64,000 nt of DNA from Bacteroidales bacterium (lineage in GTDB: Bacteria > Bacteroidota > Bacteroidia > Bacteroidales > UBA932), in the NCBI GenBank assembly GCA_017454905.1, contig JAFTCB010000054.1, positions 1 through 64,000 on the forward strand. The letters are read 5' to 3'. This document shows positions 3,191 through 44,604 of the stretch, piece after piece; position 1 is the stretch's first letter, and every line of letters begins with the position of its first letter. The position numbers were made by a program, and so were the translations under genes. The notes beneath the pieces are model-generated. The model worked only from the letters and a program-made list of their open reading frames with translations. It did no database searches and was not told the origin of the DNA.

Positions 3191-4502
3191 GGTCATCACC
3201 CTCGGCTGTTCGAAGAACACCGTCGATACCGAGCATCTGCTGGCGCAACTGCCGGCGGATGCTTTTACCATTGTAGATGCGGACGAGCCCGTCGACTGCC
3301 TGCTGCTCAACACCTGCGGCTTCATCGGCGATGCCAAGGAAGAGTCGGTGAACGCCATCCTGGAAGCCGTCGAGGCCAAGAAACGGGGTGAGGCAGGGGA
3401 GGTCATCGTGTTCGGCTGCCTGTCGCAGCGCTATGCGGCGGAACTGCCCGCGGAAATCCCGGAAGTGGATGCCTGGTTCGGTGCACGCGACCTGGCCCCC
3501 GTCTTGCGCCATCTGGGCGTGGAACCCGGCCCGCTGGTCTCCCGCCGCCTGACGGAGGCGAAAGGCTATGCCTACCTGAAGATTTCCGAAGGTTGCGACC
3601 GGCGCTGCTCGTACTGCGCCATCCCCTTCATCCGCGGCGCCCACCGCTCCGTCCCGATGGAGGACCTCGTGGCGGAGACGGAGGAGCTTGCCGCCCGGGG
3701 CGTGAAAGAACTGATCCTGATCGCCCAGGATACGACGTACTACGGCCTGGACCTGTACCACCGCCGCGCATTGGCCGAACTGCTGGACCGGCTATCGGCC
3801 GTACCGGGCATCGAATGGCTCCGGATCCATTATTCCTATCCCGCCGATTTCCCGGAGGATGTCCTCGACGCGATGGCGCACAATCCCAAGGTGTGCCGCT
3901 ACCTGGACATCCCGCTCCAGCACATCTCGGACCCGGTCCTGGACCGGATGCACCGCCATGTGGACGGCGCCTGGACGCGCGCGCTCATCGCGAAACTGCG
4001 TGCCGGGGTGTCGGGCGTCGCCCTGCGCACGACCATGATCGTCGGGCACCCGGGGGAGACGGAAGAAGCATTCGCGGAATTGCTGGACTTTGTCCGGGAG
4101 GCCCGCTTCGAGCGGCTCGGGGCGTTCATGTATTCCGAAGAAGAGGGGACCTTCGGTGCGGAGCATTTCGCCGATGACATCCCGGAGGAGGTCAAGCGCG
4201 AACGCCTGGACCGGCTGATGGAGCTGCAGCGGGAGATCTCCCTGTCCTGCAACCAGGCCCGCGTGGGCACGGAGGTCCGCGTGCTGGTGGACGGCTTCCT
4301 GCCGGCAGGTCCGTCATCTGCCGGCGCGGCCGGCGGATCCTCCCGCACGGCAATATGCCGCAGCGAATTCGAGAGCCCGGAAGTGGACGGGGAGATCCTC
4401 GTCCGCGGCGTGGCGGACACGGCCCGCGTCGGGGATTTCATCCGCGTGAAGATTGTCGCGGCGGAGGATTATGACCTGATCGCCGAGGCGGTCGGGTTCT
4501 GA
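3174..4502 (+). CDS. rimO: Ribosomal protein uS12 methylthiotransferase RimO
   Basis: RimO is a radical-SAM enzyme that adds a methylthio group to an aspartate of ribosomal protein S12. The 442-residue protein has the N-terminal cysteine motif LGCSKN (Cys12), LLNTCGF and FGCLSQ. The radical-SAM cluster motif is CDRRCSYC, the diagnostic LIAQDTTYYG follows, and the protein ends in a TRAM domain. The start at 3174 puts LGCSKN at the usual distance from the N terminus and overlaps the upstream gene. The TRAM domain carries an unusual Gly/Ala/Ser-rich insertion (about residues 376-392) encoded by a palindromic element (see the repeat at 4313). Confidence 0.93.
   Translation: MRRRLRVITLGCSKNTVDTEHLLAQLPADAFTIVDADEPVDCLLLNTCGFIGDAKEESVNAILEAVEAKKRGEAGEVIVFGCLSQRYAAELPAEIPEVDAWFGARDLAPVLRHLGVEPGPLVSRRLTEAKGYAYLKISEGCDRRCSYCAIPFIRGAHRSVPMEDLVAETEELAARGVKELILIAQDTTYYGLDLYHRRALAELLDRLSAVPGIEWLRIHYSYPADFPEDVLDAMAHNPKVCRYLDIPLQHISDPVLDRMHRHVDGAWTRALIAKLRAGVSGVALRTTMIVGHPGETEEAFAELLDFVREARFERLGAFMYSEEEGTFGAEHFADDIPEEVKRERLDRLMELQREISLSCNQARVGTEVRVLVDGFLPAGPSSAGAAGGSSRTAICRSEFESPEVDGEILVRGVADTARVGDFIRVKIVAAEDYDLIAEAVGF
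4313..4343 (+). repeat. In-frame REP-like palindrome inside rimO
   Basis: The segment reads GTCAT, then a stem GCCGG, a five-base loop, CCGGC and GGATCCTCC. This is the same architecture as the elements at 29938, 34217 and 44194. It encodes part of a Gly/Ala/Ser-rich stretch in the TRAM domain where RimO proteins normally have a short loop. The perfect 12-base palindrome CCTGCCGGCAGG lies just before it. Confidence 0.55.
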
Positions 4503-4535
4503 TAAGCGGCTCATGCAAATACAGTTGTTTTTACT

Positions 4536-4543
4536 TATATTTG
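4536..4543 (+). promoter_or_regulatory. -7 box (TATATTTG) for glsA-glsB
   Basis: TATATTTG fits the Bacteroidota -7 consensus and stands in the 63-base gap between rimO and glsA, 22 bases before the glsA ATG. No convincing -33 TTTG is seen at the expected distance. Confidence 0.55.
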
Positions 4544-4565
4544 TGAGTCACTAAAACCTTTCCGT

Positions 4566-5381
4566 ATGACCGAGGAGCAGATCCAAGACCGCCTGATCGA
4601 TCTGGACGGCATTGTCGCCGCCAAGTTCAAAGGCAAGAAGATCCCCCGGTGGGTGATGGGCTTTTTCAAGCGTTTCATCCACCAGGACTGGATGAACAGT
4701 ATGCTGCGGCGCGGCTACGACGGGGCTGAGTTCTGCGACGACCTGCTGGAGCAGATGGATGTCAAGATCGAAGTGGAGGGGCTGGAGAACGTCCCTGCCG
4801 ACGGCACACGCTATACTTTCGCCTCCAACCATCCCCTCGGGGCGGTGGACGGTATTGCCCTCTGTTCGCTGATCACGCGCCATTTCGGCCCGATGAAGAT
4901 GCTGGTCAACGATTTCCTGCTCTACATCAAGCCCCTGGCGCCGCTCTGCGTACCGATCAACAAGGTGGGCGGCCAGGCGCGCAACCTCCCGCAGATGATC
5001 GATGAGGCCTATGGCTCCGACAACCATCTGCTGATGTTCCCGGCGGGCAGCTGCTCGCGCAAGGTGGACGGCAAGATCCAGGACCTGCCCTGGACCAAGA
5101 CCTTCATTACCAAGAGCGTGGAAACCGGCCGCGCGGTCGTTCCGGTGCATTTCATCGGACGCAACCCCGGACGTTTCTACCGTGCAGACTGGTTCTTCCG
5201 CAAGTTCTTGAAGGTCAAGTTCAACATCCCGATGCTCTTCCTGCCTGACGCGTTCTATCACGCGCAGCACAAGACCTTCAGGATCATCCTCGGCAAGCCC
5301 ATTCCTTGCGAGGCTTTCGACAAATCCCGGAAACCGGCGGAGTGGGCGGCCCGGGTCCGTGAACAAGTATACCAATTGTAA
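4566..5381 (+). CDS. glsA: Lysophospholipid-type O-acyltransferase, probable GlsA of glycine lipid synthesis
   Basis: This 271-residue protein belongs to the PlsC/LPLAT superfamily. It has SNHPLGAVDG (His89, Asp95) as the catalytic motif and FPAGSCSRKVDG as the substrate-site block. In Bacteroides thetaiotaomicron the paired glsB and glsA genes make glycine lipids, GlsA adding the O-linked acyl chain. The gene is followed eight bases later by a GNAT/OlsB-like N-acyltransferase, which matches that pair. The assignment rests on family and context; a general 1-acylglycerol-phosphate acyltransferase is the main alternative. Confidence 0.75.
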   Translation: MTEEQIQDRLIDLDGIVAAKFKGKKIPRWVMGFFKRFIHQDWMNSMLRRGYDGAEFCDDLLEQMDVKIEVEGLENVPADGTRYTFASNHPLGAVDGIALCSLITRHFGPMKMLVNDFLLYIKPLAPLCVPINKVGGQARNLPQMIDEAYGSDNHLLMFPAGSCSRKVDGKIQDLPWTKTFITKSVETGRAVVPVHFIGRNPGRFYRADWFFRKFLKVKFNIPMLFLPDAFYHAQHKTFRIILGKPIPCEAFDKSRKPAEWAARVREQVYQL

Positions 5382-5388
5382 TCGTTAT

Positions 5389-6528
5389 ATGGAGAAGAAA
5401 GTCATCGACCCCGTCAGCGTGGATCTGATCAAGGCCGAACTCACCCCCGACAAGAAATTGTGCGACACCAACAAGGCCGGCAACGAACTGTATGTTTTCG
5501 ACTGGCGCGATGCGCCCAATACCCTGCGTGAAGTGGGCCGTCTGCGTGAAATCGCGTTCCGCGACGGCGGAGGCGGTACGGGTGAGGAAGTGGACCTGGA
5601 TGATTTCGACTTCGATCCCGAGCATCCCTACAAGCAGATCGTGGTCTGGGACCCGGATGCAAACGCCATTCTCGGCGGTTATCGTTTCATCCTGGGCCCC
5701 GACGTGCAGATACAGGAAGACGGGCAGCCGCACATCACTTCCGCCCACATGTTCCATTATTCGGAACAGTTCATCCGCGACTATTTGCCGCATACGATGG
5801 AACTGGGCCGTTCCTTCGTGGCTCCGGAATACCAGAGCTCCAAGGCGGGAGCGAAGGCCATTTTTGCGCTGGACAACCTCTGGGACGGCATCGTGGCCGT
5901 AATCCTGCAGCACCCCGGCATCATCTATTTCCTGGGCAAGATGACGATCTATCCCGATTATGACAGGTCCGCCCGCGAACTGATCCAGCATTTCCTGTGG
6001 AAGCATTTCCCGGACCCGGACGTGCTCGCGCGCCCCAAGCATCCGGTGGAGGTCGAGACGGATCCGCGCCTGCTGGACCTGATCCTGCGTGATGATGAAT
6101 ACAAGCAGGACTACCGCAACCTCAAGGACGCCATCCGCCGGCTCGGGCTCAACATCCCGCCGCTGGTGAATTCCTACATGAATATCTCTCCGACGATGAA
6201 GATGCTCGGTACGGGCGTCAATGATGAATTCTTCAACTGTTTCGATACGGGGATCATGGTCTGCTACGACGAGATCTATGCCGAAAAGCAGGAGCGGCAC
6301 CGCGAGCCGTATTTCCGCCATCTGGCCAAGAAGATCCGCATCCGTTTCCCGGGCTTGCGGGCGGAGCCGGAGGAGGTGGCGCAGCGTTATGCCACCAAGA
6401 ACCAGGGCGACCGCATGCGCCGTTTCAGCGAGTTCCTGAACCGTCAGAAGGATACGGTGATGGCAGCGGAGAAGAATCTGCGCAAGAAGGTGCTGCGCAA
6501 GAAGAAAAAAGAAAAGGTGGAGCCGTAA
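5389..6528 (+). CDS. glsB: GNAT/OlsB-like N-acyltransferase, probable GlsB of glycine lipid synthesis
   Basis: The 379-residue protein contains an OlsB/hemolysin-like acyltransferase core (about residues 40-200) with LREIAFRDGG, LGGYRFI and MELGRSFVAPEYQ. A long C-terminal region ends in a Lys/Arg-rich tail. By analogy with Bacteroides GlsB it would attach a 3-hydroxy fatty acid to the amino group of glycine, GlsA then adding the second chain. The start ATG at 5389 follows the glsA stop; a longer frame from a GTG inside glsA looks spurious. The last codons and stop overlap the 3' end of the RNase P RNA on the other strand. Confidence 0.75.
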   Translation: MEKKVIDPVSVDLIKAELTPDKKLCDTNKAGNELYVFDWRDAPNTLREVGRLREIAFRDGGGGTGEEVDLDDFDFDPEHPYKQIVVWDPDANAILGGYRFILGPDVQIQEDGQPHITSAHMFHYSEQFIRDYLPHTMELGRSFVAPEYQSSKAGAKAIFALDNLWDGIVAVILQHPGIIYFLGKMTIYPDYDRSARELIQHFLWKHFPDPDVLARPKHPVEVETDPRLLDLILRDDEYKQDYRNLKDAIRRLGLNIPPLVNSYMNISPTMKMLGTGVNDEFFNCFDTGIMVCYDEIYAEKQERHREPYFRHLAKKIRIRFPGLRAEPEEVAQRYATKNQGDRMRRFSEFLNRQKDTVMAAEKNLRKKVLRKKKKEKVEP

Positions 6529-6839
6529 GCCGGTTTCTGTTCACGGATTTTCTGCCATTTATCTTCGCAACCTACCCCCTGGCATCGGACGGGCCGTCCT
6601 CATCTGCCAGTATATTTGGTCTTGCAGGTCCCGGTGTCGTACCCGCACGGCATCGCTGTCATGCGTCGTGGGCTCTTGCCCCGCGTTTTCACCCTTACCT
6701 GAACGCCTGCCTCGCGGCAGGGACAGGCGGTTGTTTTCTGTTACGACGGGCGTAAGGTTACCCCTACCTGCGCTTTCCGCAGCGGGATGCCCTGTCCTGT
6801 CCGGACTTTCCTCCCTTTCGGGCGGCAGATCGCTCCACC
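6516..6839 (-). ncRNA. rnpB: RNase P RNA (class A)
   Basis: Read on the minus strand, this region has the hallmark GAGGAAAGTCCGG of RNase P RNA near the 5' end, followed by AACAGAAAACAACCGCC, GTAAGGGTGAAA and GCAAGACCAAATA. It ends with the conserved ACAGAAACCGGCTTA. The ends were placed by P1 pairing: GGTGGAGC at the 5' end pairs perfectly with GCTCCACC at the 3' end. P2 is supported by ATCTGCC pairing with GGCAGAT. The molecule (about 324 nt) is the catalytic RNA that matures tRNA 5' ends. Its P1 3' strand is also coding sequence of glsB. Confidence 0.93.
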
Positions 6840-6960
6840 TTATTTACTGGGGGCTAAGCCGCCCCCAAACCCCTTGCACCCCTCAAGTCCCTTTCCGACT
6901 TTGCTTGTGCAAAGTCCCGGGACCGGGGTGGCCGGCTGATGCCGGCTGCTTGTTTTATTT
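6840..6960 (-). other. Hairpin-rich leader between the rnpB promoter and the RNase P RNA
   Basis: About 120 bases lie between the only recognisable -7 box and the P1 helix of rnpB. They contain three perfect inverted repeats: 6849-6866 (GGGGGC, loop, GCCCCC), 6897-6916 (GACTTTGC, TTGT, GCAAAGTC) and 6931-6946 (GCCGGC, TGAT, GCCGGC). No gene is supported here. It could be a processed 5' leader, a separate small RNA, or inserted repeats. The further stretch 6973-7067 holds nothing I recognise. Confidence 0.45.
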
Positions 6961-6964
6961 TCGG

Positions 6965-6972
6965 CAAAGGTA
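6965..6972 (-). promoter_or_regulatory. -7 box (TACCTTTG) upstream of rnpB
   Basis: On the minus strand TACCTTTG fits the Bacteroidota -7 consensus. It is the only such box between rnpB and the divergent boundary, about 125 bases before the mature RNA. The -33 region is not clear. Confidence 0.5.
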
Positions 6973-7067
6973 ATCTTTTTTTGCATAAAAGAGAAACGCA
7001 GCGCCTGACGACGCTTTCGCTTCGCTCTCCTGTGGTTGCCGTGCCACGGAGGTGGTTCAGTGCCCCC

Positions 7068-9956: not shown

Positions 9957-9978
9957 AGAACGGTTATGGTATTGGTTG

Positions 9979-10749: not shown

Positions 10750-10774
10750 CCGGAAAAATGCTTGGTTCTTTTTG

Positions 10775-10782
10775 CAAATATA
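10775..10782 (-). promoter_or_regulatory. -7 box (TATATTTG) for the glutaminyl cyclase gene
   Basis: TATATTTG on the minus strand lies 25 bases before the cyclase start codon. It supports the shorter start and a transcript covering the cyclase and perhaps the GH106 gene. Confidence 0.55.
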
Positions 10783-10813
10783 GTGGTTTTCCGGCAGATT
10801 CGGATAAGACGAC

Positions 10814-10840: not shown

Positions 10841-10878
10841 ACGGTTAGTTAGTAGTGTATTACCTTATAGAAGGTTAA

Positions 10879-16182: not shown

Positions 16183-16184
16183 AT

Positions 16185-28125: not shown

Positions 28126-31100
28126 ATGCTGAACCGGCTCCTGGACCGCCCCGTTTCCGTCACGATGATCTTGCTGGTGCTCGTCGTGCTGGGCTGCGTG
28201 GGTATCGGGCGGCTGCCCGTGTCGCTGATTCCCGACGTGGACATTCCTTATGTGACGGTGCAGGTCTCGGCTCCCGACCTGTCGGCGCGCGAACTGGACG
28301 ATGCCGTGGTGAAGCCCCTGCGTCAGAGCCTCGTGCAGATCGCCCGCCTCAAGGATATCCGCAGCGAGGCGCGGGACGGCAGCGCGACCATGACGCTCTC
28401 TTTCGAGGAAGGGCGTGACATCGACTATTTCTATATCGAGGTCAATGAGAAAATCGATCGCGCAATGGGCTCCCTGCCGCGCATCGACCGGCCCAAGGTG
28501 TTCAAGGCCAGCGCCACGGATATCCCGGCCTTCTACGTCAACATGACGCTGAAGGACCCCGGAGGGGATTTTCTCCGGATGAGCGAATTCGCCCGCGACG
28601 TGATCGCCAAGCGCATCGAGCAGCTGCCCGAGGTGGCGATGGTGGATCTGAGCGGCGGAGCGGAGCGGGAGATCCTCGTGATCCCGGATCCCGAGGCGCT
28701 TGCGCGGCTGGGTCTGTCGGCGGGGCAGTTCGAACAATACGTCTCTTCGGCCAACGTGACCCTGTCCAACCTTACCATCCGCGACGGTGAGTACCACTAC
28801 AACGTCAAGTTCCGCTCTTTCGCGGCCTCCCGCGAAGATATCGCTGATGTGTGGTTCCGGGCGGGAGAGCGCATCCTGCAGGTGAAGGACGTGGCGCGCG
28901 TGGAGGAACGCGAGGCGGCCCGCACGGGCCTATCGCGCAGCGATGGACGGGATGCCGTCACGCTGGCCGTGATCAAGCAGAGCGAGGCGCGGATGGCTGC
29001 GCTCAAAAAAGGCATCGCGGAGCAGCTGGAGCACTTCCGGGCGGACTATCCCCAGATGGAATTCGCCGTGTCCCGCGACCAGACGCAGCTGCTGGACTAT
29101 TCGATCCGCAATCTGCTGATCAATATCCTGCTGGCGATCCTGCTGGACATCGTGGTGATTTTCTTTTTCATGAAGGACCTGCGCTCTCCGCTGCTGGTCT
29201 CGCTCACGATTCCGGTCTCGCTCGTCATCTCGTTCTTTGTTTTCTATGCCATCGGCCTGTCCATCAATATTATCTCCCTGTCCGGCCTGCTGCTGGGCGT
29301 GGGCATGATGGTGGACAATACCATCGTGCTGACGGACAACATCACGGCACGTTGGCAGCGGGGAGAGTCCCTCCGGGATGCCGTCGTGGAGGGGACGAAG
29401 GAGGTCCGCGGGGCGATGCTCAGCTCGGTGCTGACGACCTGCGCGGTGTTCATCCCGCTGATCTTCCTCAACGGCCTGGCGGGAGAACTCTTCTACGACC
29501 AGGCCATGGCTGTGACCACGGTGCTGCTGGTCTCTTACGGCGTGACGGTACTCGTGCTGCCGGTGTACTACTGGGCGCTGTACAAGCGGCTTCCTGCTTT
29601 CCGGCCGAATGCCTTCCTGTCCCGTCTGCGCTTCGACGGCGCCCTGCGGCTCTACGACCGCGCGGTGGGCTGGCACCTCGGCCACCGGTGGATTGTCTGG
29701 GTGCTGCCGCTCTGCTGCGCGGCGCTCGCGGCCGTGTGCCTGTGGGGGATGCGCAAGGAGAAGCTGCCGCCAATCACCTACACCGACGCCATCCTGCATA
29801 TCGACTGGAACGAGCACATCACGCTGGATCAGAACCGCTTGCGGGTCATGGCGCTGGAGGAGGCCTCCTCGTCCCTCGCCGAATCCTCGTCATTCGCCGA
29901 ATCCTCGTCATTCGCCGAATCCTCGTCATTCGCCGAATCCTCGTCATTCGCCGGCTTGACCGGCGAATCTCCCCGCACCACCGCCCTGGTGGGCGTCCCG
30001 CAGTTCGTCCTGGGCCACAGCGAAGACCAGTCGATGAGCGAAGCCTCGCTCTATGTCAGCTGCTCCGACGCCCGCGAACTGGCGGTGCTGCAGGAACGGC
30101 TGTCCGCGCTGGTGCGGAGCCGCTGGCCTGCGGCCATCCAGGCCTGGGGAAACAGCGGCAACATCTTCGAGATGGTGTTCGCGGAGCGGGAGCCGCAGCT
30201 GCTTGCGCGCCTGCGTCCTGCCGGAGGCGAGGGCCTGACGGTAGCCGGGGTGAACGAGGCCCTGGATGCCGTGCGCGCCGCCTTGCCCGGGGTGCAGATC
30301 GACGGGATCCCCCTCAAGCAGGATGTCCTCTATGTGTCCGATCCCGAGCGGATGGCGCTCTATGGGGTCCGTTTCTCCGACCTGACGGAGGTGCTGCGCA
30401 ACGCGCTCAACGGCAACCGTCTCTTCGAAATCGTACAGGGTGCCCGGTCGGTGCCCGTCGTGCTGGGTACGGATGCGGAAGAACTCTCGCAACTGCTCGC
30501 CCGTGCCACCGTATCCGTGACGCAGGACGACGGCTCGAAGGCGGAGATTCCGGCCTCTTCGCTGATGCGGCAGACATTCGAACAGGATTTCAAGGCGCTG
30601 GTCTCCGGCGACGACGGCAACTATTATCCGCTTGCGCTGGACCTCCCGGCGCGCCGCGTTCCGGCGGCGATGACGGCCATCCGCCAGGCGGTCCGCCCGG
30701 CCGGTTTCGACGCCGCCTTCACGGGCGCGTGGTTCACCAATCGGGAGATGATCCGGCAAATGCTGCTGGTGCTTCTGGTGGCCCTGGCGCTGCTTTTCCT
30801 CATCCTCGCCTCGCAGTTCGAGTCGCTCCTGCAGCCCTTCATCATCCTCTCCGAGGTGGTGATCGACATCGCCGTGTCGCTTGCGGCGCTGTGGCTGCTG
30901 GGCGTGAGCATCAACATGATGTCGCTGATCGGCCTGGTGGTGATTACCGGCATCGTGATCAATGACTCCATCCTCAAGATCGACACCATCAACCGTCTGG
31001 TACGCTCCGGAATGGAGGTGGAGGCAGCCGTGCATGAAGCGGGCCATCGCCGGCTCAAAGCCATCCTGATGACCTCCCTGACCACCGTCCTCGCCGTGGC

Positions 31101-31245
31101 GCCCTTCCTTTCGCGGGGCAACATGGGCGCGGACCTGCAGTATCCGATGGCGCTCGTGATCATCGTGGGCATGACGGCCGGTACGCTCGTGAGCCTCTTC
31201 TATGTGCCCACGGTCTATGCGGCCCTTCATAGGCACAGGCGCTGA
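28126..31245 (+). CDS. RND efflux permease, first of a tandem pair
   Basis: This 1039-residue inner-membrane transporter begins with RPVSVTMILLVLVVLGCVGI. It has the TM4 motif GVGMMVDNTIVLTDN (proton-relay Asp, second Asp replaced by Asn, as in many family members) and IGLVVITGIVINDSILKID near the end. It exports small molecules using the proton gradient. At residues 581-616 it carries a Ser/Phe/Ala/Glu repeat (SSSFAE units) encoded by an 18-base DNA repeat and a palindrome, at the start of a porter subdomain, just before ALVGVPQFVLG. The insertion is absent from family members I know. Confidence 0.9.
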   Translation: MLNRLLDRPVSVTMILLVLVVLGCVGIGRLPVSLIPDVDIPYVTVQVSAPDLSARELDDAVVKPLRQSLVQIARLKDIRSEARDGSATMTLSFEEGRDIDYFYIEVNEKIDRAMGSLPRIDRPKVFKASATDIPAFYVNMTLKDPGGDFLRMSEFARDVIAKRIEQLPEVAMVDLSGGAEREILVIPDPEALARLGLSAGQFEQYVSSANVTLSNLTIRDGEYHYNVKFRSFAASREDIADVWFRAGERILQVKDVARVEEREAARTGLSRSDGRDAVTLAVIKQSEARMAALKKGIAEQLEHFRADYPQMEFAVSRDQTQLLDYSIRNLLINILLAILLDIVVIFFFMKDLRSPLLVSLTIPVSLVISFFVFYAIGLSINIISLSGLLLGVGMMVDNTIVLTDNITARWQRGESLRDAVVEGTKEVRGAMLSSVLTTCAVFIPLIFLNGLAGELFYDQAMAVTTVLLVSYGVTVLVLPVYYWALYKRLPAFRPNAFLSRLRFDGALRLYDRAVGWHLGHRWIVWVLPLCCAALAAVCLWGMRKEKLPPITYTDAILHIDWNEHITLDQNRLRVMALEEASSSLAESSSFAESSSFAESSSFAESSSFAGLTGESPRTTALVGVPQFVLGHSEDQSMSEASLYVSCSDARELAVLQERLSALVRSRWPAAIQAWGNSGNIFEMVFAEREPQLLARLRPAGGEGLTVAGVNEALDAVRAALPGVQIDGIPLKQDVLYVSDPERMALYGVRFSDLTEVLRNALNGNRLFEIVQGARSVPVVLGTDAEELSQLLARATVSVTQDDGSKAEIPASSLMRQTFEQDFKALVSGDDGNYYPLALDLPARRVPAAMTAIRQAVRPAGFDAAFTGAWFTNREMIRQMLLVLLVALALLFLILASQFESLLQPFIILSEVVIDIAVSLAALWLLGVSINMMSLIGLVVITGIVINDSILKIDTINRLVRSGMEVEAAVHEAGHRRLKAILMTSLTTVLAVAPFLSRGNMGADLQYPMALVIIVGMTAGTLVSLFYVPTVYAALHRHRR
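29866..29972 (+). repeat. In-frame array: four 18-base units plus one full palindrome, inside RND permease 1
   Basis: One diverged unit (29866-29883) and three identical units TCCTCGTCATTCGCCGAA (29884-29937) are followed by a full element (29938-29972). The palindrome of the full element is ATTCGCCGG, CTTGA, CCGGCGAAT (29946-29968). Each 18-base unit equals the full element with its loop and second stem removed. The length is a multiple of three, so the frame stays open. Confidence 0.92.
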
Positions 31246-34200
31246 TGGCCGGGCGGGGGAAGGGCATATCGTCGTTCTCGGTCCTGCTGCTGATGGCGGT
31301 GGCGGCCGTCGTGGGCATCGCCTGCTTCCCGCGGCTGAAGGTGCAGTACAACCCCACCGCCGTTTCCAGGAACATCACCGTCTCCTACAGTTATCCCGGC
31401 GCTTCAGCGCGCATCGTGGAAGCGGAGGTGACCTCCAGGCTGGAAGGGGTGCTCTCGACCATCCGCGCCGTGGAGGCCACCAGCAGCGTTTCGCGGGAAG
31501 GCGGCGGCTCCGTGACCGTGCGTGCCGCCCGCCGCTCCGATCTGGAGGCCGTGCGCTTCGAGGTGGCCTCGCAGATCCGCAATCTCTGGCCCAGGCTCCC
31601 GGAGGGCTGTTCCTACCCGTCCATTTCGCTCAATGCGCGCGGCGAGAAGACGCAGACGGCCATCACCTACAGCATCCGCAGCGCCCTGCCTTCGCAGGAA
31701 ATCGCCGACTTCGTCGAAGGCGAACTGCTCTATCCGCTCTCTACGGTGGAGGGGGTCAGCAGCGTGGACTTCTATGGGCAGACACCTTTCGAATGGGTGA
31801 TTACCTTCGATGCGGACCGGGCGGCGGCGTCCGGGATCACGGCGGCGGAGCTCCGGCGGGCGATATCGGACGCATACGCGGAGGAAATCGCCGGCGTGAC
31901 GCAGCTTGGCGGGGAAGCTTTCGGGGTGCGGCTGCGAAACCGACGGGCACCGGACTTCGGCTCCATCCCCGTGAAACGGGTGGGGGACCGGGTGGTCCAC
32001 CTGGGCGAGCTGGCCACTTTCCGCTACCAGGAGGCACTGCCGAATTCCTACTACCGCGTCAACGGGCTCAATGTCCTGACGGTGGCCGTAGAAGTGAGCG
32101 CGGACGCCAACCTCCTCGGCGTGGTGCAGGCCGTCAAAGACCGCATGGCGCAGCTGCAGGCCGGTTTCCCGGACGAGATCGGCGTGTCGGTGGGCTACGA
32201 CTACTCGGAGTACATCGCAGACGAACTGGACAAGATCTATTTCCGCACGGCGCTCTGCCTGCTGATCCTGCTGCTGTTCGTCTTCGTGACGGCGCGCTCG
32301 TGGCGCTACATGCTGGTGATTGCCATCACGCTGGCGGTCAATCTGCTGATCAGCGTGGCGCTGTACTATTTCCTGGGGCTCCAGATCCACATCTACACCC
32401 TCGCAGGCGTGACGGTTTCGCTGGGCATCATCATCGACAACAGCATCGTGATGATCGACCATTACGTCCGCTGCGGCGACCGCAAGATCTTCCCCTCGCT
32501 GCTCTGTGCCGTGATGACCACGGTGGCGGCCCTGCTGGTGATCCTGCTGATGCCCGAGCAGGAGAAGGCCAACCTGACGGATTTTACCTGGGTGATCGTG
32601 ATCAATCTCAGCGTGTCGCTGGGGGTGGCGTACCTGTTCGTGCCGGCGCTGCTGGATTATTTCCCGGTCCCGGCCGGGGGCGCGGCAGGACAGCGTCCCG
32701 CGCGTGTGCGCCGCCGCGCCCGCCTGCGTGCCGCCTACGGCCGCTACATCGGCTGGGGGGTACGCCACCGCTGGGTCTATTGGGTGCTGCTGGTGGTCCT
32801 GTTCGGCATCCCGACCTGCCTGCTTCCCGCGAAGTTCGGGGACGAGCGGGAAGCGCCGCTGAGACGCTATGAGGTGGTACTCAACCGGATCGTGGGCTGG
32901 CGGCCCTATGCCGACAACAAGGCAGCCGTCGACAAGGTCCTGAGCTCGACTTTCGGTCTCTTCCACAAGGCGATGTCCCGTTCGGACTTCTACCGGGAGC
33001 CGGCCCGGCCGCAGCTGACGATTCGCGCCGGGATGCCCGAGGGCTGCACCGTGCAGCAACTCGACGAGGTGATGCGCAGCATGGAGAATTATCTCTCGCA
33101 CTACGACGAGATCGATGTGTTCGAGACCCGCATCACGGCCTACAACAACGGCACCATCACGGTCTGGTTCAAGCCGGAGCATGAAGGGACCTGGCTGCCG
33201 TCCCGCATCAAGGGCGAGGTCATCTCGATGGCCACGAACTTCGGCGGGGCCAACTGGAGCGTATCCGGCATCGATGACAGCTTCTTCAACAACAATATCG
33301 TCACGGACTCCCGCTCGCACAGCATCACCCTGACGGGCTATAATTTCGACGAACTGAACGCCTACGGCGAACAGCTGATCACGCATCTGCGGGGAAACCG
33401 CCGCGTTTCGGATCCGGAGATCTGGGGCAGCGGCTGGAGCGACCGGCCCCGCACGGAGTTCAACCTGCGCTATGATTTCGAGGCGCTCAGCGCCCGGGGA
33501 ATCAGTCCGTATGCCTATTATGCGGCGCTCCAGTCACCGCTTTACGACGCTTCGCTGATGCGGCTCCCGCAGGACGGGCGCTATGTCGGCGTACGGCTCG
33601 TTTCCTCGGCCAGGGACGAACTGGACCTCTGGCACATTGACCATTCGGCCGTGGCCGTGTCGGGGGAGCAGAAGATGAAACTCTCCGAGGTGGGCAGCAT
33701 CTCCAAGGACCGCACGGGCCTGCCGATCCAGAAGGAGAACCAGGCCTACACGGTCACGGTGCGTTTCAATTTCATCGGCTCCTACCAGCTGGCAAGCAAG
33801 GTGATCGAAGAGGCGGTGGACTGGATGAATCTCGAAGTCCTGCCCATCGGTTTCCGCGCCGGCAGCGACCGCAGCGGCTGGTACTACAATGCCCGGCAGA
33901 ACTACGCCTGGCTGATCCTGCTGGTGATCGCCATCATCTTCGTGATCTGCGCCGTGCATTTCAACTCCCTGCGGCTGCCGCTCGCCATCATCCTGATGAT
34001 CCCGCTGTCGTTCGTGGGGCTGTTCCTCGCTTTCGGCCTCAGCGATTTTACCTTTGACAAAGGCGGCTTTGCGGCTTTCGTGATGCTCTGCGGCATCACG
34101 GTCAATGCCGGGATCTACCTGGTGTCGGAATGGCTTTCCTGCCGCTACGGGAGATGGCCGGTCGCAGCCGGCCATGACCTCTCCTGTCACCCCGACTTCT

Positions 34201-34457
34201 CCTGTCACCCCGACTTCTCCTGTCATCCCCGGCCTGACCGGGGATCCCTCCGTGCGTACCTCCGCGCCTTCAGCCACAAACTGCGTCCCGTCTCCCTGAC
34301 CATCCTCTCCACGGTCCTGGGCCTCGTCCCCTTCTTCTTCGACGGTCCGTCCGAAGTGTTCTGGTTCGCCTTCGCCGTCGGCACCATCGCCGGGCTGCTC
34401 TTCTCCGTGCTCGCCCTGCTTCTCTACCTGCCGGTCTTCGCCCTGAGGCGGAAATGA
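31245..34457 (+). CDS. RND efflux permease, second of a tandem pair
   Basis: This 1070-residue RND transporter starts on the last base of the previous stop (TGATG). It has TVSLGIIIDNSIVMIDHYVR in TM4, the GANWSVSGIDDSFFNN porter block and VMLCGITVNAGIYLV near the end. The two permeases are clearly different proteins, as in heteromeric pumps such as MdtBC, though each could also work alone. Residues about 969-1002 (WPVAAGHDLSCHPDFSCHPD and on) interrupt the cytoplasmic loop before the last helices and are encoded by palindromic repeats. Confidence 0.88.
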   Translation: MAGRGKGISSFSVLLLMAVAAVVGIACFPRLKVQYNPTAVSRNITVSYSYPGASARIVEAEVTSRLEGVLSTIRAVEATSSVSREGGGSVTVRAARRSDLEAVRFEVASQIRNLWPRLPEGCSYPSISLNARGEKTQTAITYSIRSALPSQEIADFVEGELLYPLSTVEGVSSVDFYGQTPFEWVITFDADRAAASGITAAELRRAISDAYAEEIAGVTQLGGEAFGVRLRNRRAPDFGSIPVKRVGDRVVHLGELATFRYQEALPNSYYRVNGLNVLTVAVEVSADANLLGVVQAVKDRMAQLQAGFPDEIGVSVGYDYSEYIADELDKIYFRTALCLLILLLFVFVTARSWRYMLVIAITLAVNLLISVALYYFLGLQIHIYTLAGVTVSLGIIIDNSIVMIDHYVRCGDRKIFPSLLCAVMTTVAALLVILLMPEQEKANLTDFTWVIVINLSVSLGVAYLFVPALLDYFPVPAGGAAGQRPARVRRRARLRAAYGRYIGWGVRHRWVYWVLLVVLFGIPTCLLPAKFGDEREAPLRRYEVVLNRIVGWRPYADNKAAVDKVLSSTFGLFHKAMSRSDFYREPARPQLTIRAGMPEGCTVQQLDEVMRSMENYLSHYDEIDVFETRITAYNNGTITVWFKPEHEGTWLPSRIKGEVISMATNFGGANWSVSGIDDSFFNNNIVTDSRSHSITLTGYNFDELNAYGEQLITHLRGNRRVSDPEIWGSGWSDRPRTEFNLRYDFEALSARGISPYAYYAALQSPLYDASLMRLPQDGRYVGVRLVSSARDELDLWHIDHSAVAVSGEQKMKLSEVGSISKDRTGLPIQKENQAYTVTVRFNFIGSYQLASKVIEEAVDWMNLEVLPIGFRAGSDRSGWYYNARQNYAWLILLVIAIIFVICAVHFNSLRLPLAIILMIPLSFVGLFLAFGLSDFTFDKGGFAAFVMLCGITVNAGIYLVSEWLSCRYGRWPVAAGHDLSCHPDFSCHPDFSCHPRPDRGSLRAYLRAFSHKLRPVSLTILSTVLGLVPFFFDGPSEVFWFAFAVGTIAGLLFSVLALLLYLPVFALRRK
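34151..34251 (+). repeat. In-frame repeat array inside RND permease 2
   Basis: The array consists of a reversed palindromic element (34151-34178, ATGGCCGG, loop, CCGGCCAT, GAC), two identical truncated units CTCCTGTCACCCCGACTT (34181-34198, 34199-34216) and a full element (34217-34251, ATCCCCGG, CCTGA, CCGGGGAT). It encodes the SCHPDF repeat. The plan is the same as in permease 1, with different base composition in the stems. Confidence 0.92.
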
Positions 34458-38689: not shown

Positions 38690-39431
38690 CATCCTGCCTG
38701 AAGAGATAGAGAAAATGCCGCTGGGATCGTTCCCCGGCCAGATTTGTGTCATAGACAAGATGGGATTGGAGTTTGTCAGGGCGGTTGCTTACCTGCGAAC
38801 CCAGAAAATCATCGGATTCGATACGGAGACCCGGCCGGTCTTTTCGCCGGGCCAGCACCACAACCATGTGGCCCTGCTGCAGTTGTCCGGCCCGCGGAAG
38901 GCTTTCCTGTTCCGGGTAGGCCTGGTCGGGATGCCGAAACTGCTGTGCAATCTGATGGCCAATCCGCGCATCCTCAAGGTCGGCGCTGCCGTCCACGATG
39001 ATGTGCGCGGGTTGCAGTATTACCAGGAATTCAAGGCCCAGGGCTTCGTGGACCTCCAGAAGATCGCCTTCGAATGGGGCATCCGCGACAAGAGCGTGAA
39101 GAAGATGGCGGCCAACATCCTGGGCGTACGGATCTCCAAGTCGCAGCAGCTTTCCAACTGGGAGGCGGAAGAACTGTCGGCCGGGCAGCAGATGTATGCC
39201 GCGACGGATGCCTGGGTCTGCCGGGAGATGTATCTCAAACTGCTCCAGTGCGAGAAGCATCCGCTGACGCCGGAGCAGTTGAATCCGCCGCAGCCGCAGC
39301 CCCAGCCGGTGAAAGAGGCGGCTCCGGCCCCTGCCGTCGAGGAAGAAGTGAAACCGAAGCCGAAGCGGCGGCGCCGCCACCGCAAGCCGAAGGCCAAGAA
39401 GGTGCAGGAGGCACCCGCAGACAATGGTTAA
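38676..39431 (+). CDS. 3'-5' exonuclease domain protein (RNase D-like)
   Basis: The 251-residue protein has the DEDD exonuclease motifs. Exo I is IIGFDTETRP, exo II is the ILKVGAAVHDDVRGL block, and exo III is in YAATDAWVCREMY. The C terminus is Pro/Gln-rich then strongly basic (KPKPKRRRRHRK), probably nucleic-acid binding. It lacks the HRDC domains of full RNase D. In Bacteroidota it is typically found next to the following rRNA methyltransferase gene, suggesting an rRNA or tRNA processing role. It overlaps rlmI by eight bases. Confidence 0.82.
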   Translation: MFKISILPEEIEKMPLGSFPGQICVIDKMGLEFVRAVAYLRTQKIIGFDTETRPVFSPGQHHNHVALLQLSGPRKAFLFRVGLVGMPKLLCNLMANPRILKVGAAVHDDVRGLQYYQEFKAQGFVDLQKIAFEWGIRDKSVKKMAANILGVRISKSQQLSNWEAEELSAGQQMYAATDAWVCREMYLKLLQCEKHPLTPEQLNPPQPQPQPVKEAAPAPAVEEEVKPKPKRRRRHRKPKAKKVQEAPADNG

Positions 39432-40920
39432 GGTCTATCTGAAGCCGGGCCGCGACGAGTCGTTGCGCCGCTTCCATCCCTGGGTGTTCAGCGGGGCCGT
39501 GGCCCAGGTGCAGGGCTCTCCCGCCGAGGGCGACATCGTCGGAGTCTACAGCGCCGAGGGGCAGTATCTCGCCTCCGGCCACTGGCAGATCGGATCGATC
39601 GCCGTCCGCATCCTCTCCTTCGACGCCGACCCCACCGCCCCCGAATTCTGGGAAATCTCCATCCGCCGCGCCCTCGCCGTCCGCGAGGCGACGGGATTGT
39701 ACCAGGTCAGCGGAGTTTCAGAGCCGGTCGGCGAACTGTCTCTGAAAACGTCCGGCTGCGCCGGACCCCTCCCATCTGACGATGGGCCCCTCCCTCTTAC
39801 GATGCCGAGGGTGGCACGCTTTTCTGAGGCAGTTGCCGACCCGGCTGATTCTGAAACTCCGCTGACGACCTGTTTCCGCCTGGTCCACGGCGAAGGCGAC
39901 GGTCTCCCGGGACTGATCATCGACTGGTACGACGGCGTCTGCGTCATGCAGGCCCACTCCGTCGGCATGTTCCGCGCCAAGGCGCAGATCTGCGAAGCCC
40001 TCCGGGCCGTCTTCGGCGAACGCCTCAAGGCTGTCTACGACAAAAGTTCCGGCACGGCCCCCTTCAAAGCCGGCCTGGACCTGGTGGACGGCTACCTCTG
40101 GCGCGCCCCGGACTTCACCGCCTCCGAAACCGTCGTCTGTGAAAACGGCCGCAGGTTCCTGGTCAACTGGGAAGAAGGCCAGAAAACCGGCTTCTTCCTC
40201 GACCAGCGCGACAACCGCGCCCTCGTCGGCAAATACGCCGCCGGCCGCCGCGTGCTCAACCTCTTCTGCTACACCGGCGGCTTCAGCATCTACGCCCTCA
40301 CCTCCGGCGCCGTCTGCGTCGACTCCGTCGACTCCTCCGCCAAAGCCATGTCACTGGTAGAACGCAACATCCAGTTGAATTCCGGCGGAGCGGAGACGGC
40401 AGTCCCCTTGCAGGACCGTGCCACCCTCGGCACCGTAAGAGGGGGGACCGCAAGCGAAGCGCAGCGGTGGGGTCCGACGAAGGAGGACGTCCGGCAAGGA
40501 GAGCTGCCGCGCAGCGAAGAACGAGCGGAATTCAACGGCGGTGCGGCTGAATTCAACAACTACTGCGAAGACGCCATCGAATTCCTGCGGAAGACCCCGG
40601 AAGGCAAATACGACCTGATCATCGTCGACCCGCCGGCATTCGCCAAACACCGCGGCGCCCTGAAAAACGCCCTCCGCGCCTACCAGCGCCTCAACGCCGC
40701 CGCCATCGCCAAAGTGGCGCCCGGCGGCCTCGTATTCACCTTCAGCTGCTCCCAGGTCGTCGACAAGATCACCTTCGCCAACACGGTCTTCTCCGCCGCC
40801 GCCCAGACCGGCCGCGGCGTCCGGATCCTCGACCGCCTCTGCCAGGGCGCCGACCACCCGGTCAGCATCTACCACCCCGAAGGCGAATACCTCAAAGGCC
40901 TGCTGCTCTACGTCGAATAA
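39424..40920 (+). CDS. rlmI: 23S rRNA (cytosine-C5) methyltransferase, RlmI family, with two inserted segments
   Basis: This 498-residue protein has an N-terminal PUA domain (FHPWVFSGAV), the FRLVHGEGDGLPGLIIDWY block and the SAM site VLNLFCYTGGFSIYA. The catalytic region contains DLIIVDPPAFAKH and TFSCSQ. RlmI methylates C1962 in 23S rRNA. Family members are near 390-400 residues; here about 100 extra residues come from two in-frame inserts, residues about 95-148 and 317-378. The second splits the conserved ERNIQLN and EDAIEFL blocks. All motifs are intact, so the protein may still work. Confidence 0.88.
   Translation: MVKVYLKPGRDESLRRFHPWVFSGAVAQVQGSPAEGDIVGVYSAEGQYLASGHWQIGSIAVRILSFDADPTAPEFWEISIRRALAVREATGLYQVSGVSEPVGELSLKTSGCAGPLPSDDGPLPLTMPRVARFSEAVADPADSETPLTTCFRLVHGEGDGLPGLIIDWYDGVCVMQAHSVGMFRAKAQICEALRAVFGERLKAVYDKSSGTAPFKAGLDLVDGYLWRAPDFTASETVVCENGRRFLVNWEEGQKTGFFLDQRDNRALVGKYAAGRRVLNLFCYTGGFSIYALTSGAVCVDSVDSSAKAMSLVERNIQLNSGGAETAVPLQDRATLGTVRGGTASEAQRWGPTKEDVRQGELPRSEERAEFNGGAAEFNNYCEDAIEFLRKTPEGKYDLIIVDPPAFAKHRGALKNALRAYQRLNAAAIAKVAPGGLVFTFSCSQVVDKITFANTVFSAAAQTGRGVRILDRLCQGADHPVSIYHPEGEYLKGLLLYVE
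39706..39866. repeat. 161-base MITE-like element with 17-base terminal inverted repeats inside rlmI
   Basis: The ends are a perfect inverted repeat, GTCAGCGGAGTTTCAGA (39706-39722) and its complement (39850-39866). The inner arms continue the pairing with single-base gaps (GCCGG..TCGGC..AACTG). Between them are two hairpins (GTCCGGC, TGC, GCCGGAC; CCCATC, TGAC, GATGGG) and a 27-base core at 39792-39818. No transposase is encoded. Confidence 0.88.
40374..40557. repeat. Second inserted element inside rlmI, sharing the core
   Basis: The segment is bounded by GTTGAATTC (40374) and GAATTCAAC (40549), with a further GAATTCAAC at 40528. It contains a core (40417-40443) that matches the core of the first element in inverted orientation with one difference. 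The flanking codons for Asn, Gly, Gly and Ala are repeated on both sides, as after a target duplication. Confidence 0.75.
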
Positions 40921-40950
40921 CCGGGCCTCCGCCCGCCACCACGATACACC

Positions 40951-43900
40951 ATGAAAAGACCGCTGACCCACACTATGACGGCCTTGGGCCTGTCCGTCCT
41001 GATGATCCTGCCGCTCCTGCCGGGCTGCCGTCCGCAAAGCGGGAACGAAGAAACCACCCGCGGCATCGGGATCTACCCCGGCGACCCCGCCGAATACAGC
41101 GGCCCGGAACTCGTCCCGGGCGGAGAAACCTACCGCAACCTGGCCCTGCGCCGCATCGCCCGGCACTCCTCCAGCTACGACTACAACCTGACCGCCCAGC
41201 TGGCCACCGACGGCATCCCGGCGCGGCAGGCGCCGACCTGGCTGGAACTGCAGGCAAACGGGATCCCCGTCACGCGGCAGGACCGCGAAAAACTCTTCGA
41301 CAGCAACACCTGGACAACCCTCTCCCTGCCGGGCGGCGGACAGACGGAGATCCTCCTGCTGCTGCACGGAGGCAGCGTGACGGCGGACCGCCTGTCGCTC
41401 TCCGGCACGGCCCGGGGCGTCGCAGGCCCTGCCTCCCTGACGGTGGAGATTTCCCCGGACGGGGAACGATGGACGGAGGCCGGCGTGCTGGCGGAGCGGG
41501 ATTTCCCCGGAGGGAACCTGCCTCGCCGCTACCACGGCGACCGCAGCCGCAATTTCTACTGGATGGTCGACCTGCCTGCGGAGCCCTTTGCCGCCGCCCG
41601 GCTGACGCTGGCGGCCCCGGGCGTCGGGCAATGGGAGCTCCAGCAGTGGGACTTTTCCCGGGCAGGGGAGCCCGTGGACATCCTCCCGTCCGCGCGCTTC
41701 TGCAGCGCCTGGATGGCCGCAGGCACGGAGGATGAATGGCTCAGCGTGGATCTGGGCGCGGCCGCCCGTTTCGACAAGCTCGTGCTCTCCTGGGTCGAGC
41801 GCCCGGAAGGCGGCGTCGTGGAGACTTCTGCCGACGGCGTGCGCTGGATGCAGATCGCGGAACTGCCGCAGGTAGGCCCGCTCATCGAGGAGATTCCCGT
41901 TCACGGAAGGGGACGCTATGTCCGCCTGGCGGGGCTGGAGACTTCTCCCGGCAGCCGGATCGTCCTCGGTGAGATGGAGGTCTGGGGCCGCGGGGGCGTC
42001 GTGCCGCAGCCGCGGGAGATCCCCGGTCAGGCCGGGGATGACCAGTGTTTGGCTGGGGATGCGGGCGTGGATGGCTTGACCGGAGGTCCCGGCCGCCTGG
42101 ACCTGCGCGGCGGAGCCTGGCGGCTGCAGCGTGCCAGCGAGGTTTCCGAGCCGGGCACGGCCCTGTCCGTCCCGGGCTACCCGGCCGATGGTTGGCTGCC
42201 CGCGACAGTGCCCGGCACCGTACTGACTTCTTACTTCAACGCCGGCGCCGTCCCGGACCAGCGTTACGATGACGACCAGCTGCAGATCTCCGAATCCTTC
42301 TTCCTGGAGGATTTCTGGTACCGCGACGAATTCGACCTTCCGGCCGGCTGGGATGGCCGGGAACTCCTGTTGCATTTCGACGGCATCAACTGGAAGGCGG
42401 AGGTGTTCGTGAACGGCACCCGGGCCGGACAGATTGACGGCGCCTTCACCCGGGCGGCCTTCGACGTGGGCGGGCTCGTCCATCCCGGTCGCAACGCGCT
42501 GGCTGTCAGGATCCTGAAGAATGCCCATCCGGGCATCGTCAAGGAGCAGGACCGCCGTTCGGCGGATCTCAACGGCGGCGTGCTGGGCGCCGACAACCCC
42601 ACCATGCACGCGACCATCGGCTGGGACTGGATCCCGACCGTCCGCGGGCGCAACATCGGCATCTGGAACGATGTCTGGCTGTCCGCGCACCGCGCGGCCG
42701 TGACCATCGACGATGTGTTCGTGGATACGGACCTGCCGCTGCCGTCCGTGGATTATGCGATGCTGAAGCCCGTCGTGACGCTGACCAATCATGGCGCACA
42801 GCCGTGTGAGGCGGGGATTTCCCTGCGATTCGGGGACCTGCTGATTTCGGGGGAAGCCGCCCTGGCCGCGGGGGAGACCCGCGATGTGCCCCTGCCGGAA
42901 ACCTGCCTGGAGCATCCGCAGCTCTGGTGGCCGGCCGGCTACGGGGAGCCGCATCTCTATGCGGTGCAGACGGACGTCAGCGTGGACGGGGTGCTTTCCG
43001 ATACGCGCGCGCAGTTCTCCGGAGTCCGGGAAATGTCCTACCGCGAGGATAGCGGGGTGCTGGACTTCTACGTGAACGGACGGCGCCTGATCGGCAACGG
43101 CGGCAACTGGGGCTACCCGGAAGTCAACCTGAATTACCGCGCCCGCGAATACGACATCGCCGTGGCCTACCACGCGGACATGCATTTCACGATGATCCGC
43201 AACTGGGTGGGAATGACCGGCGACGATGAGTTCTGGGAGGCCTGCGACCGCCACGGCGTGATGGTCTGGCAGGACTTCTGGCTGGCCAACCCGGCCGACG
43301 GCCCCGAGCCGGCCGACGAGGCGATGTTCCTGGCCAACGCGGAGGATTTCCTCCGCAAGATCCGCCACCATCCCTGCCTGGCGCTGTATTGCGGGCGCAA
43401 CGAGGGCAATCCGCCGGCGTCCCTGGATGCGGGGCTGGCGGAGCTGGTGTCGCGGCTCCATCCGGGCCTGCACTACATCCCGCATTCCGCGGACGGTCCT
43501 GTCAGCGGCGGGGGCCCCTACCGGGCGCTGCCTCCGGCGGAGTATTTCGCGCTGGAGCGCGGGGCGGACCGCTTCCACAGCGAACGTGGCATGCCCAACG
43601 TCCCGACCGTGGAGAGCCTGGAGCGGATGCTTTCTCCCGCGCATCGCTGGCCGCAGGATGCGGTCTGGGGGATGCATGATTACTGCCTGGAGAGTGCGCA
43701 GAGCGCGGCGACCTTCAATGCGATGGTGGCGAAGGCCTTCGGGGAGCCTGCTTCGCTGGAGCAGTTTGCCGCTTGGGCGCAGTGGATCGATTACGAGGGC
43801 TACCGCGCCATCTTCGAGTCCCGCAGCGCGCAGCGTAAGGGGATCCAACTGTGGATGAGCCATTCCTGCTGGCCGTCGATGGTCTGGCAGACGTATGATT

Positions 43901-44604
43901 ATTATTTCGCGCCGACGGCGGCGTATTTCGGGGCCAAGAAGGGGAGTGCGCCCGTACGCATCCAGTGGAATCCGGTCCGGGAACAGGTCGAGGTGGTCAA
44001 CAACAATGCCGGCGACCTGCGGGGACTCACGGTGCAGGTCGTTGTCGTGACACCGGACGGTACGGTCCTCTCCGGGCAGACCGCCGCGCTGGACGCTCCG
44101 GAGGACACCACGACGCCGGTGCCCGTTGAGATCCCCGGTCAGGCCGGGGATGACGGTGGCGTCATTCCCGATCTGACCGGGGATGACGGTGGCGTCATTC
44201 CCGACGCGATCGGGAATCTCCTCCTCCTGCGCCTCCGCCTGATCCAGGACGATCGCGAACTCGCCGACAACTTCTATGTCCTCAACCCCGCCGATCCCGG
44301 CAACCTGCAGACCCTCCGGGACATGCCTTCCGCCCGCGTGGAGCTGCGATACGATTTCCGGCTGGAAGCCGGGCAGTGGCGGACGGTCGCCATCCTGGAG
44401 AACCGTTCATCCGTGCCTGCCCTGATGCTGCGGCTCAACCTTGTCGGGGCGCGGGACGGAGAGCAGATCCTGCCGGTCTTCTACGAAGACAACTGGATCT
44501 CCCTGCTCCCGGGCGAGTGCAAGGAACTGACCGTGCGCTGCGCCGCCTCTGACACCCGCGGCGGTCGCCCCGCCCTGCGGCTCAGCGGCTTCAACTTGCG
44601 GTAA
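40951..44604 (+). CDS. GH2-family exo-glycosidase (beta-mannosidase / exo-glucosaminidase-like) lipoprotein with F5/8C-like domain
   Basis: This 1217-residue lipoprotein (lipobox LPGC) has an N-terminal F5/8-type C-like region (about residues 60-350). A GH2 sugar-binding domain (YRDEFDLPAGWDGRELLLHF), an immunoglobulin-like domain and a TIM barrel follow. The barrel has NWVGMTGDDEFWEACDRHG, the acid/base Glu818 in CGRNEG and the nucleophile Glu878 in HSERGMP. The pattern fits mannosylglycoprotein endo-beta-mannosidase or exo-beta-glucosaminidase types; the substrate is not certain. Two insertions (residues about 356-385 and 1060-1090) come from palindromic repeats and sit between domains. The gene starts 30 bases after rlmI. 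Confidence 0.82.
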   Translation: MKRPLTHTMTALGLSVLMILPLLPGCRPQSGNEETTRGIGIYPGDPAEYSGPELVPGGETYRNLALRRIARHSSSYDYNLTAQLATDGIPARQAPTWLELQANGIPVTRQDREKLFDSNTWTTLSLPGGGQTEILLLLHGGSVTADRLSLSGTARGVAGPASLTVEISPDGERWTEAGVLAERDFPGGNLPRRYHGDRSRNFYWMVDLPAEPFAAARLTLAAPGVGQWELQQWDFSRAGEPVDILPSARFCSAWMAAGTEDEWLSVDLGAAARFDKLVLSWVERPEGGVVETSADGVRWMQIAELPQVGPLIEEIPVHGRGRYVRLAGLETSPGSRIVLGEMEVWGRGGVVPQPREIPGQAGDDQCLAGDAGVDGLTGGPGRLDLRGGAWRLQRASEVSEPGTALSVPGYPADGWLPATVPGTVLTSYFNAGAVPDQRYDDDQLQISESFFLEDFWYRDEFDLPAGWDGRELLLHFDGINWKAEVFVNGTRAGQIDGAFTRAAFDVGGLVHPGRNALAVRILKNAHPGIVKEQDRRSADLNGGVLGADNPTMHATIGWDWIPTVRGRNIGIWNDVWLSAHRAAVTIDDVFVDTDLPLPSVDYAMLKPVVTLTNHGAQPCEAGISLRFGDLLISGEAALAAGETRDVPLPETCLEHPQLWWPAGYGEPHLYAVQTDVSVDGVLSDTRAQFSGVREMSYREDSGVLDFYVNGRRLIGNGGNWGYPEVNLNYRAREYDIAVAYHADMHFTMIRNWVGMTGDDEFWEACDRHGVMVWQDFWLANPADGPEPADEAMFLANAEDFLRKIRHHPCLALYCGRNEGNPPASLDAGLAELVSRLHPGLHYIPHSADGPVSGGGPYRALPPAEYFALERGADRFHSERGMPNVPTVESLERMLSPAHRWPQDAVWGMHDYCLESAQSAATFNAMVAKAFGEPASLEQFAAWAQWIDYEGYRAIFESRSAQRKGIQLWMSHSCWPSMVWQTYDYYFAPTAAYFGAKKGSAPVRIQWNPVREQVEVVNNNAGDLRGLTVQVVVVTPDGTVLSGQTAALDAPEDTTTPVPVEIPGQAGDDGGVIPDLTGDDGGVIPDAIGNLLLLRLRLIQDDRELADNFYVLNPADPGNLQTLRDMPSARVELRYDFRLEAGQWRTVAILENRSSVPALMLRLNLVGARDGEQILPVFYEDNWISLLPGECKELTVRCAASDTRGGRPALRLSGFNLR
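42016..42096 (+). repeat. In-frame palindrome plus degenerate copies in the GH2 gene, first site
   Basis: A full element in reverse orientation lies at 42016-42042 (GAG, ATCCCCGG, TCAGG, CCGGGGAT, GAC). It is followed by weaker, partly matching pieces (GGCTGGGGATG, GGATGGCTTGACCGG) up to about 42096. The encoded peptide EIPGQAGDD recurs at the second site. Confidence 0.82.
44128..44220 (+). repeat. Three palindromes in a 33-base tandem in the GH2 gene, second site
   Basis: Elements at 44128-44154, 44161-44187 and 44194-44220 are separated by identical GGTGGC spacers. The first equals the element at 42016; the last ends in AATCTC like the element in RND permease 1. The 33-base period (11 codons) keeps the frame and encodes repeats of the GDDGGVIPD type. 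Confidence 0.92.

Follow-up and report, generated by a model that had tools for sequence, protein, structure and literature searches.

CGTC-tagged REP-like palindromes inside and between genes of a Bacteroidales genus

How did short palindromes come to lie in frame within rimO, two RND permease genes, and a GH2 enzyme gene of a Bacteroidales bacterium, and is it the palindrome or the encoded peptide that is kept there? In-gene palindromic elements are best known from Rickettsia. Here, we report an analysis of a 64,000-nucleotide stretch of DNA (UBA932 lineage; GenBank assembly GCA_017454905.1, contig JAFTCB010000054.1, positions 1 to 64,000; hereafter, the window), whose palindromes form a dispersed family resembling repetitive extragenic palindromic (REP) sequences, with more copies than chance would give. 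In our reading (probability, roughly 0.8), this is a CGTC-tagged REP family mainly of this genus that probably spread as head-to-head pairs, after which the linkers that it forms within genes would vary.

The window (contig C31 of genome G000) belongs to a 2.42-Mb genome in 62 contigs, 82% complete. Its closest named relatives, judged by RND permease 2, are Bacteroidales metagenome-assembled genomes, several of which are placed by their titles in the rumen or other ruminant stomachs. Relatives were represented by one genome per species; contigs of the window's own genome are labelled C, loci of relatives L, and genomes G.

The repeat family and where its copies lie

The whole genome was searched with the pattern GTCATYCCCGRNNNNNYCGGGRATC (up to two mismatches), which gave 40 matches (21 forward and 19 reverse, one site being counted on both strands) versus none for the reversed pattern used as the control. 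A covariance model (CM) built from 19 element copies found at least 89 matches at E ≤ 10 and at least 64 at E < 0.05, with 8 in the window; the scan scored 150 of 4,673 first-look candidates, so the genome count may be a lower bound, and the high counts of some relatives may be reduced in the same way. The REP-like family proposed in a preliminary description of this DNA is thus real. Its consensus is YGTCATNCCCGGCYTGACCGGGNATCTCC: a GTC tag (25 of 26 tabulated copies) preceded by C or T (25 of 26), an 8- to 9-bp stem opening with paired AT, a 5-nt loop (a 6-nt variant also occurs), and a tail that is mostly TCTCC. In these 19 copies, 98% of stem cells are paired, and the stems covary between copies, with two-sided changes in 19 cells (a count reached by 0 of 500 shuffles).

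Neighbouring copies are predominantly head-to-head. Within 120 bp of each other, 9 head-to-head, 2 head-to-tail, and 1 tail-to-tail neighbours were counted in this genome and 41, 15, and 4, respectively, in six relatives (summed, 50, 17, and 5), which puts 50 of 72 close pairs in reverse-then-forward order. No longer shared mobile unit was found, the 3′ flanks past the 29-mer agreeing at chance level save in the pair C5:5283/C46:3314. As a separate observation, terminator-like palindromes around CCTTCGGAG...CTCCGAAGG recur intergenically beside elements of this genome (C5:5283, C46:3314, and C35:53068, on the 3′ side).

Elements were present at E ≤ 0.001 in 33 of 49 genomes of the genus (this one included), patchily and with 1 to 94 copies, and in 3 of 32 genomes from other families of the order, with 1, 1, and 39 copies.

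Genes were called with a self-trained, codon-usage-based caller (coding density, 0.90 over 284 kb of this genome). Of the 64 CM matches at E < 0.05, 31 were intragenic, 27 intergenic, and 6 across a gene end; intergenic copies are over-represented relative to the 10% of sequence that is non-coding, yet the intragenic share, about half, is high by the standard of REP families. Among relatives, where gene calling was poorer, 82 of 151 elements were intragenic. The window, with all 8 elements inside open genes, is not typical of the genome, and the initial view that the palindromes occur in coding sequence only holds for the window and fails genome-wide. The features of the window are as follows (scores are from the CM).

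3174..4502, + strand: host gene rimO (Pfam UPF0004, Radical_SAM, and TRAM_2)
4312..4342, + strand: CGTC-REP-like element in rimO, TRAM domain (26.9 bits; 9-bp stem with one mismatch; loop CGCGG)
28126..31245, + strand: host gene RND permease 1 (Pfam ACR_tran)
29871..29941, + strand: four tandem 18-bp half-units flanking the RND permease 1 element on its head side (GTCATTCGCCGAATCCTC; first unit variant)
29942..29972, + strand: full element in RND permease 1 (41.3 bits; 9-bp stem ATTCGCCGG/CCGGCGAAT)
31245..34457, + strand: host gene RND permease 2 (Pfam ACR_tran)
34150..34179, − strand: element in RND permease 2 whose loop is 6 nt long, paired head-to-head with that at 34221 (37 bits)
34186..34220, + strand: two 18-bp half-units (GTCACCCCGACTTCTCCT), seen by eye and too diverged for the half-unit and step counts below
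34221..34249, + strand: full element in RND permease 2 (44.6 bits)
40951..44604, + strand: host gene for a GH2 enzyme with F5/F8 and Ig_GlcNase domains (Pfam; gene caller's start, 40975)
42015..42043, − strand: full element in the GH2 gene, between the F5/F8 and GH2-N domains (REIPGQAGDD; 45.9 bits)
44127..44155, − strand: full element in the GH2 gene, before the Ig domain (EIPGQAGDD; 48.2 bits)
44160..44186, + strand: partial element, the middle one of a three-element array in the GH2 gene (22.4 bits)
44193..44221, + strand: full element, third of the GH2 array (43.5 bits)

The partial copy at 44160 and the rimO copy are the weakest of these. All four host genes remain open, as had been described. 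Genome-wide, 18 of 20 host proteins scanned (out of 21) match a Pfam family; they include RimO, the two RND pumps, a UvrA homologue, B12-dependent methionine synthase (MetH), a PriA-type protein, MacB/FtsX, RNase H, two MFS transporters, an M3 peptidase, and two GH2 enzymes. Both MetH pairs and the first GH2 site (F5/F8 to GH2-N) are interdomain, and other sites lie inside a domain match (e.g., RimO, MacB, and CN hydrolase).

Orthologous sites and polar half-unit arrays

At every site compared (RimO, RND permease 1 near residue 605, RND permease 2 near residues 232 and 972, two GH2 sites, two MetH linkers, and the UvrA homologue), the extra residues are missing from some or most orthologues. 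RimO has about 13 extra residues in its TRAM domain; among 29 aligned orthologues (the best from 54 other genomes of the genus that gave a match), 27 have none of the 13, L204 has 1, and L189 has 7. The first GH2 site is filled in the window only and empty in all covering relatives (15 of 18 aligned); at the second, the window has its array of three, L038 one shorter palindrome, and L231 some unrelated extra residues. In the UvrA homologue, about 36 to 40 extra residues (one element plus four half-units) have no counterpart in any of the 25 loci aligned, several of them split halves of a single gene. Orthologues without the insert, a point left for checking, are therefore the majority for RimO, GH2, and the UvrA-like protein, whereas the RND and MetH loops are also occupied in other species (G023 [L340; CM match] and, judged by peptide, G025 [L345] have a filled MetH linker).

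Near residue 605 of RND permease 1, the element is forward in the window, L038, and L039, reverse in L040 to L044, and absent from L045, L046, L064, L072, and L073; the forward and reverse clades are sisters, separated from the empty clade with a support of 100. Near residue 232 of permease 2, it is forward in L039 and reverse in L040 and L043, and L044 has an apparent remnant with a 12-bp deletion. Near residue 972, L039 has a single element, L038 one half-unit plus a full element, and the window two half-units, a full element, and a reverse partner.

Two further observations concern these sites. In L039, the copies near residue 605 of permease 1 and residue 232 of permease 2 (non-homologous positions) have the last stem pair substituted alike and agree over about 6 nt of 3′ flank past the 29-mer, a single case in which the two look as if one had been copied from the other. 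Near residue 972, a second palindrome type, TGTCATCCTGAGCGAAGCGAAGGATCT (peptide, CHPERSEGS), occurs in L061 (DNA) and L040 (peptide), and similar sequence adjoins elements of this genome near C41:58869 and C10:39463.

Opposite orientations at one loop could have arisen without repeated insertion if a single ancestral head-to-head pair lost different partners in different lineages, to which we give nearly even odds. For RND permease 1, such a loss would be as good an account as two insertions, because the forward and reverse clades group together, apart from the empty one; the excess of reverse-then-forward neighbours and the pairs retained in the window's RND permease 2 and GH2 genes also agree with it. 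On the other hand, the elements of L039 and L038 at the permease 1 loop differ in stem and frame, and the MetH linker and that near residue 232 of permease 2 are filled in scattered lineages.

Half-units (copies of the head plus 5′ arm) occur upstream of the elements, at the head side. At up to one mismatch, 22 were found on the head side, none downstream, and none in mirror image around the 64 elements of this genome, and 31, 1, and 0, respectively, around 148 elements of six relatives (shuffled controls, 0.1 to 0.2). The asymmetry persists at up to two mismatches (31 upstream versus 4 downstream in this genome, 44 versus 8 in relatives; controls, 2 to 3) and at up to three (45 versus 14 in this genome; mirror image, 4; control, 6.6). 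Steps are mostly 18 to 24 bp, with a few of 27 to 40 bp, and were multiples of three in 42 of 42 cases inside genes versus 8 of 20 outside (P = 6 × 10⁻⁸), a result that is partly circular, in that an array that breaks the frame is likely to terminate the called gene; steps within one array are also not independent, and some relatives' genes in this count score low. The head side is the inner side of a head-to-head pair, and this inner position may explain the one-sided growth.

Spread, Y1 genes, and what is kept within genes

We propose that the elements spread throughout the genome as head-to-head pairs, in a REPIN-like manner, possibly moving as single-stranded hairpins acted on in trans, perhaps by Y1 (HUH) transposase-like proteins. 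Copies within genes occupy interdomain linkers and variable loops, keep the frame, and mostly use the frames that give turn-rich linkers (EIPGQAGND and VIPGLTGNL); this linker-like character would explain why the peptides are tolerated. Once inserted, an element would gain tandem copies of its head-proximal half, probably through slippage there, or lose the hairpin interior or one partner, and linker lengths would keep changing because of such gains and losses. It is rather unlikely that the family has gone further and become a generator of protein linkers, surviving in genes through turn-rich peptides in both orientations, multiplying its head-side half by whole codons, and driving most of the change in length and sequence of interdomain linkers in many housekeeping proteins of the genus.

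The frames occupied bear on this proposal. Four of the six frames of the consensus 29-mer are open, and phase 2, which gives EIPGQAGND- or VIPGLTGNL-like peptides, was used by 32 of 41 intragenic 29-nt copies versus 9 in the other open frames (P = 0.0004; counted by gene, 26 versus 9, P = 0.006; both tests assume that the two open frames of an orientation are equally likely). These counts are for genes scoring at least 100 and at least 0.25 per residue and comprise 12 of 14 copies in this genome and 20 of 27 in relatives; without the gene-quality filter, phase 2 accounts for 18 of 20 in this genome.

Several results weigh against our reading. No transposition was observed in the compared genomes, and with one genome per species, the loops are too diverged to fix insertion ends. 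The RimO insert is partly common to L189 and is for this reason not recent. Without the gene-quality filter, relatives show a weaker preference for phase 2 (39 of 60; antisense, 23 versus 16; sense, 16 versus 5). The neighbourhoods of 40 relatives' Y1 genes (126 kb; 34 of the 40 from element-bearing genomes) held 5 CM matches, in 3 neighbourhoods, which is near the 2 to 3 expected from copy numbers by a hand estimate. Finally, four carriers have no Y1 match, namely, G001, G013, G029, and G070, the last with 39 copies and 99% complete.

A true REP-RAYT system, in which a resident RAYT-like Y1 transposase mobilises the elements and its gene does not adjoin them, is less likely than not. The genome does have a RAYT-like Y1 gene, for which the preliminary description had advised a search, although the elements do not form its ends: the three Y1 loci examined here contain one clear element match, about 70 bp past the 3′ end of one Y1 gene, which speaks for such a system, and no Y1 gene bounded by elements was found in these three loci or in the 40 of relatives. 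Within the genus, Y1_Tnp matches occur in 30 of 33 carriers versus 7 of 16 non-carriers (Fisher's P = 0.0007, uncorrected for phylogeny or completeness), an association that is weak at a 10-copy threshold (18 of 20 versus 19 of 29; P = 0.09); the rank correlation is rho = 0.31 (P = 0.03), and outside the genus, the proportions are 2 of 3 carriers versus 22 of 29 non-carriers. The many copies of G070 also argue against this system, as does L303, the one Y1 locus with elements on both sides. This locus (G027:C18, about 1190 to 2402) holds a Y1 transposase-like gene between two convergent genes, and the unit, which resembles a TIRYT unit, ends in inverted repeats of its own (CGCGTGGAGGTAA / TTACCTCCACGCG); elements are present on both sides but outside these repeats, at the 3′ ends of the convergent neighbours, and the candidate was rejected.

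Between orthologous in-gene copies, five stem substitutions were seen (one each in L040, L044, and L039 and two in L038), all one-sided and none compensated, with three leaving a G-T pair, although the set is small. The initial proposal that in-gene elements are selected to keep the palindrome as a functional RNA or DNA structure, and not for the peptide, is thus very improbable: the compensation that it cited holds across different copies, but it is absent from these orthologous ones, one of which (L044) is an apparent deletion remnant, about half of all copies lie outside genes, and the frame bias implicates the peptide. On balance, selection for tolerable peptides is favoured.

Apart from the elements, the gene caller called no gene in the window at 44666 to 48714 despite long open reading frames, which suggests differing codon usage and a possible foreign origin.

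Comparison with known repeat systems

With these findings, in-gene palindromic elements extend to a gut-associated genus of Bacteroidales in which many species have been sequenced and copy numbers differ strongly. Empty and filled sites can be compared in MetH, RimO, the UvrA homologue, and RND pumps, and the polar half-unit arrays offer a handle on how CGTC REPs change after insertion. Neither these arrays nor the frame bias is described in the portions consulted of PMC3733652, PMC3116915, and PMC6006769 or of the other open-licence PMC literature searched. The same literature gave no account specific to Bacteroidales, in line with the preliminary description, but CGTC repeats have already been published for the phylum Bacteroidetes (PMC3733652).

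Like Rickettsia palindromic elements, the repeats are inserted in frame within genes and missing from some or most orthologues, although in another phylum. That precedent, named at the outset, proved apt: in PMC3733652, RPE-4 and RPE-6 are filed in CGTC-4 and CGTC-1, respectively.

REPINs (Bertels and Rainey 2011, PMC3116915) are described as inverted REP doublets proposed as the replicative unit, extragenic and near RAYT genes; inverted doublets are present here too, whereas half of the copies are in genes and no RAYT linkage was seen. The tandem-repeat section of that paper concerns arrays of whole REPs. Also unlike the REPIN-RAYT system, no RAYT gene here was flanked by elements, and the tag is not GTAG.

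The closest likeness is to the CGTC-tagged REP superfamily of Di Nocera et al. 2013 (PMC3733652), defined there by tag, stem, loop, and head-to-head pairs and reported from Bacteroidetes and within genes; no dedicated transposase is known for it there, and its repeats do not flank transposase genes. CGTC-2 is the nearest family by its text description rather than by letter-by-letter sequence. Shared features are the C/TGTC tag, the AT first pairs, the 8-bp stem (some 9 bp here), the 5-nt loop, the predominance of head-to-head pairs, the intragenic units, and the lack of association with transposase genes (Y1 genes being those examined here). As far as that text goes, the elements differ in a tail that is mostly TCTCC rather than the CCA of most (not all) of its tails, in having about half of the copies within genes where CGTC REPs are mostly intergenic, and in the polar half-unit arrays, which it does not mention. 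The elements are a further CGTC REP family of a known type, with unusual behaviour inside genes.

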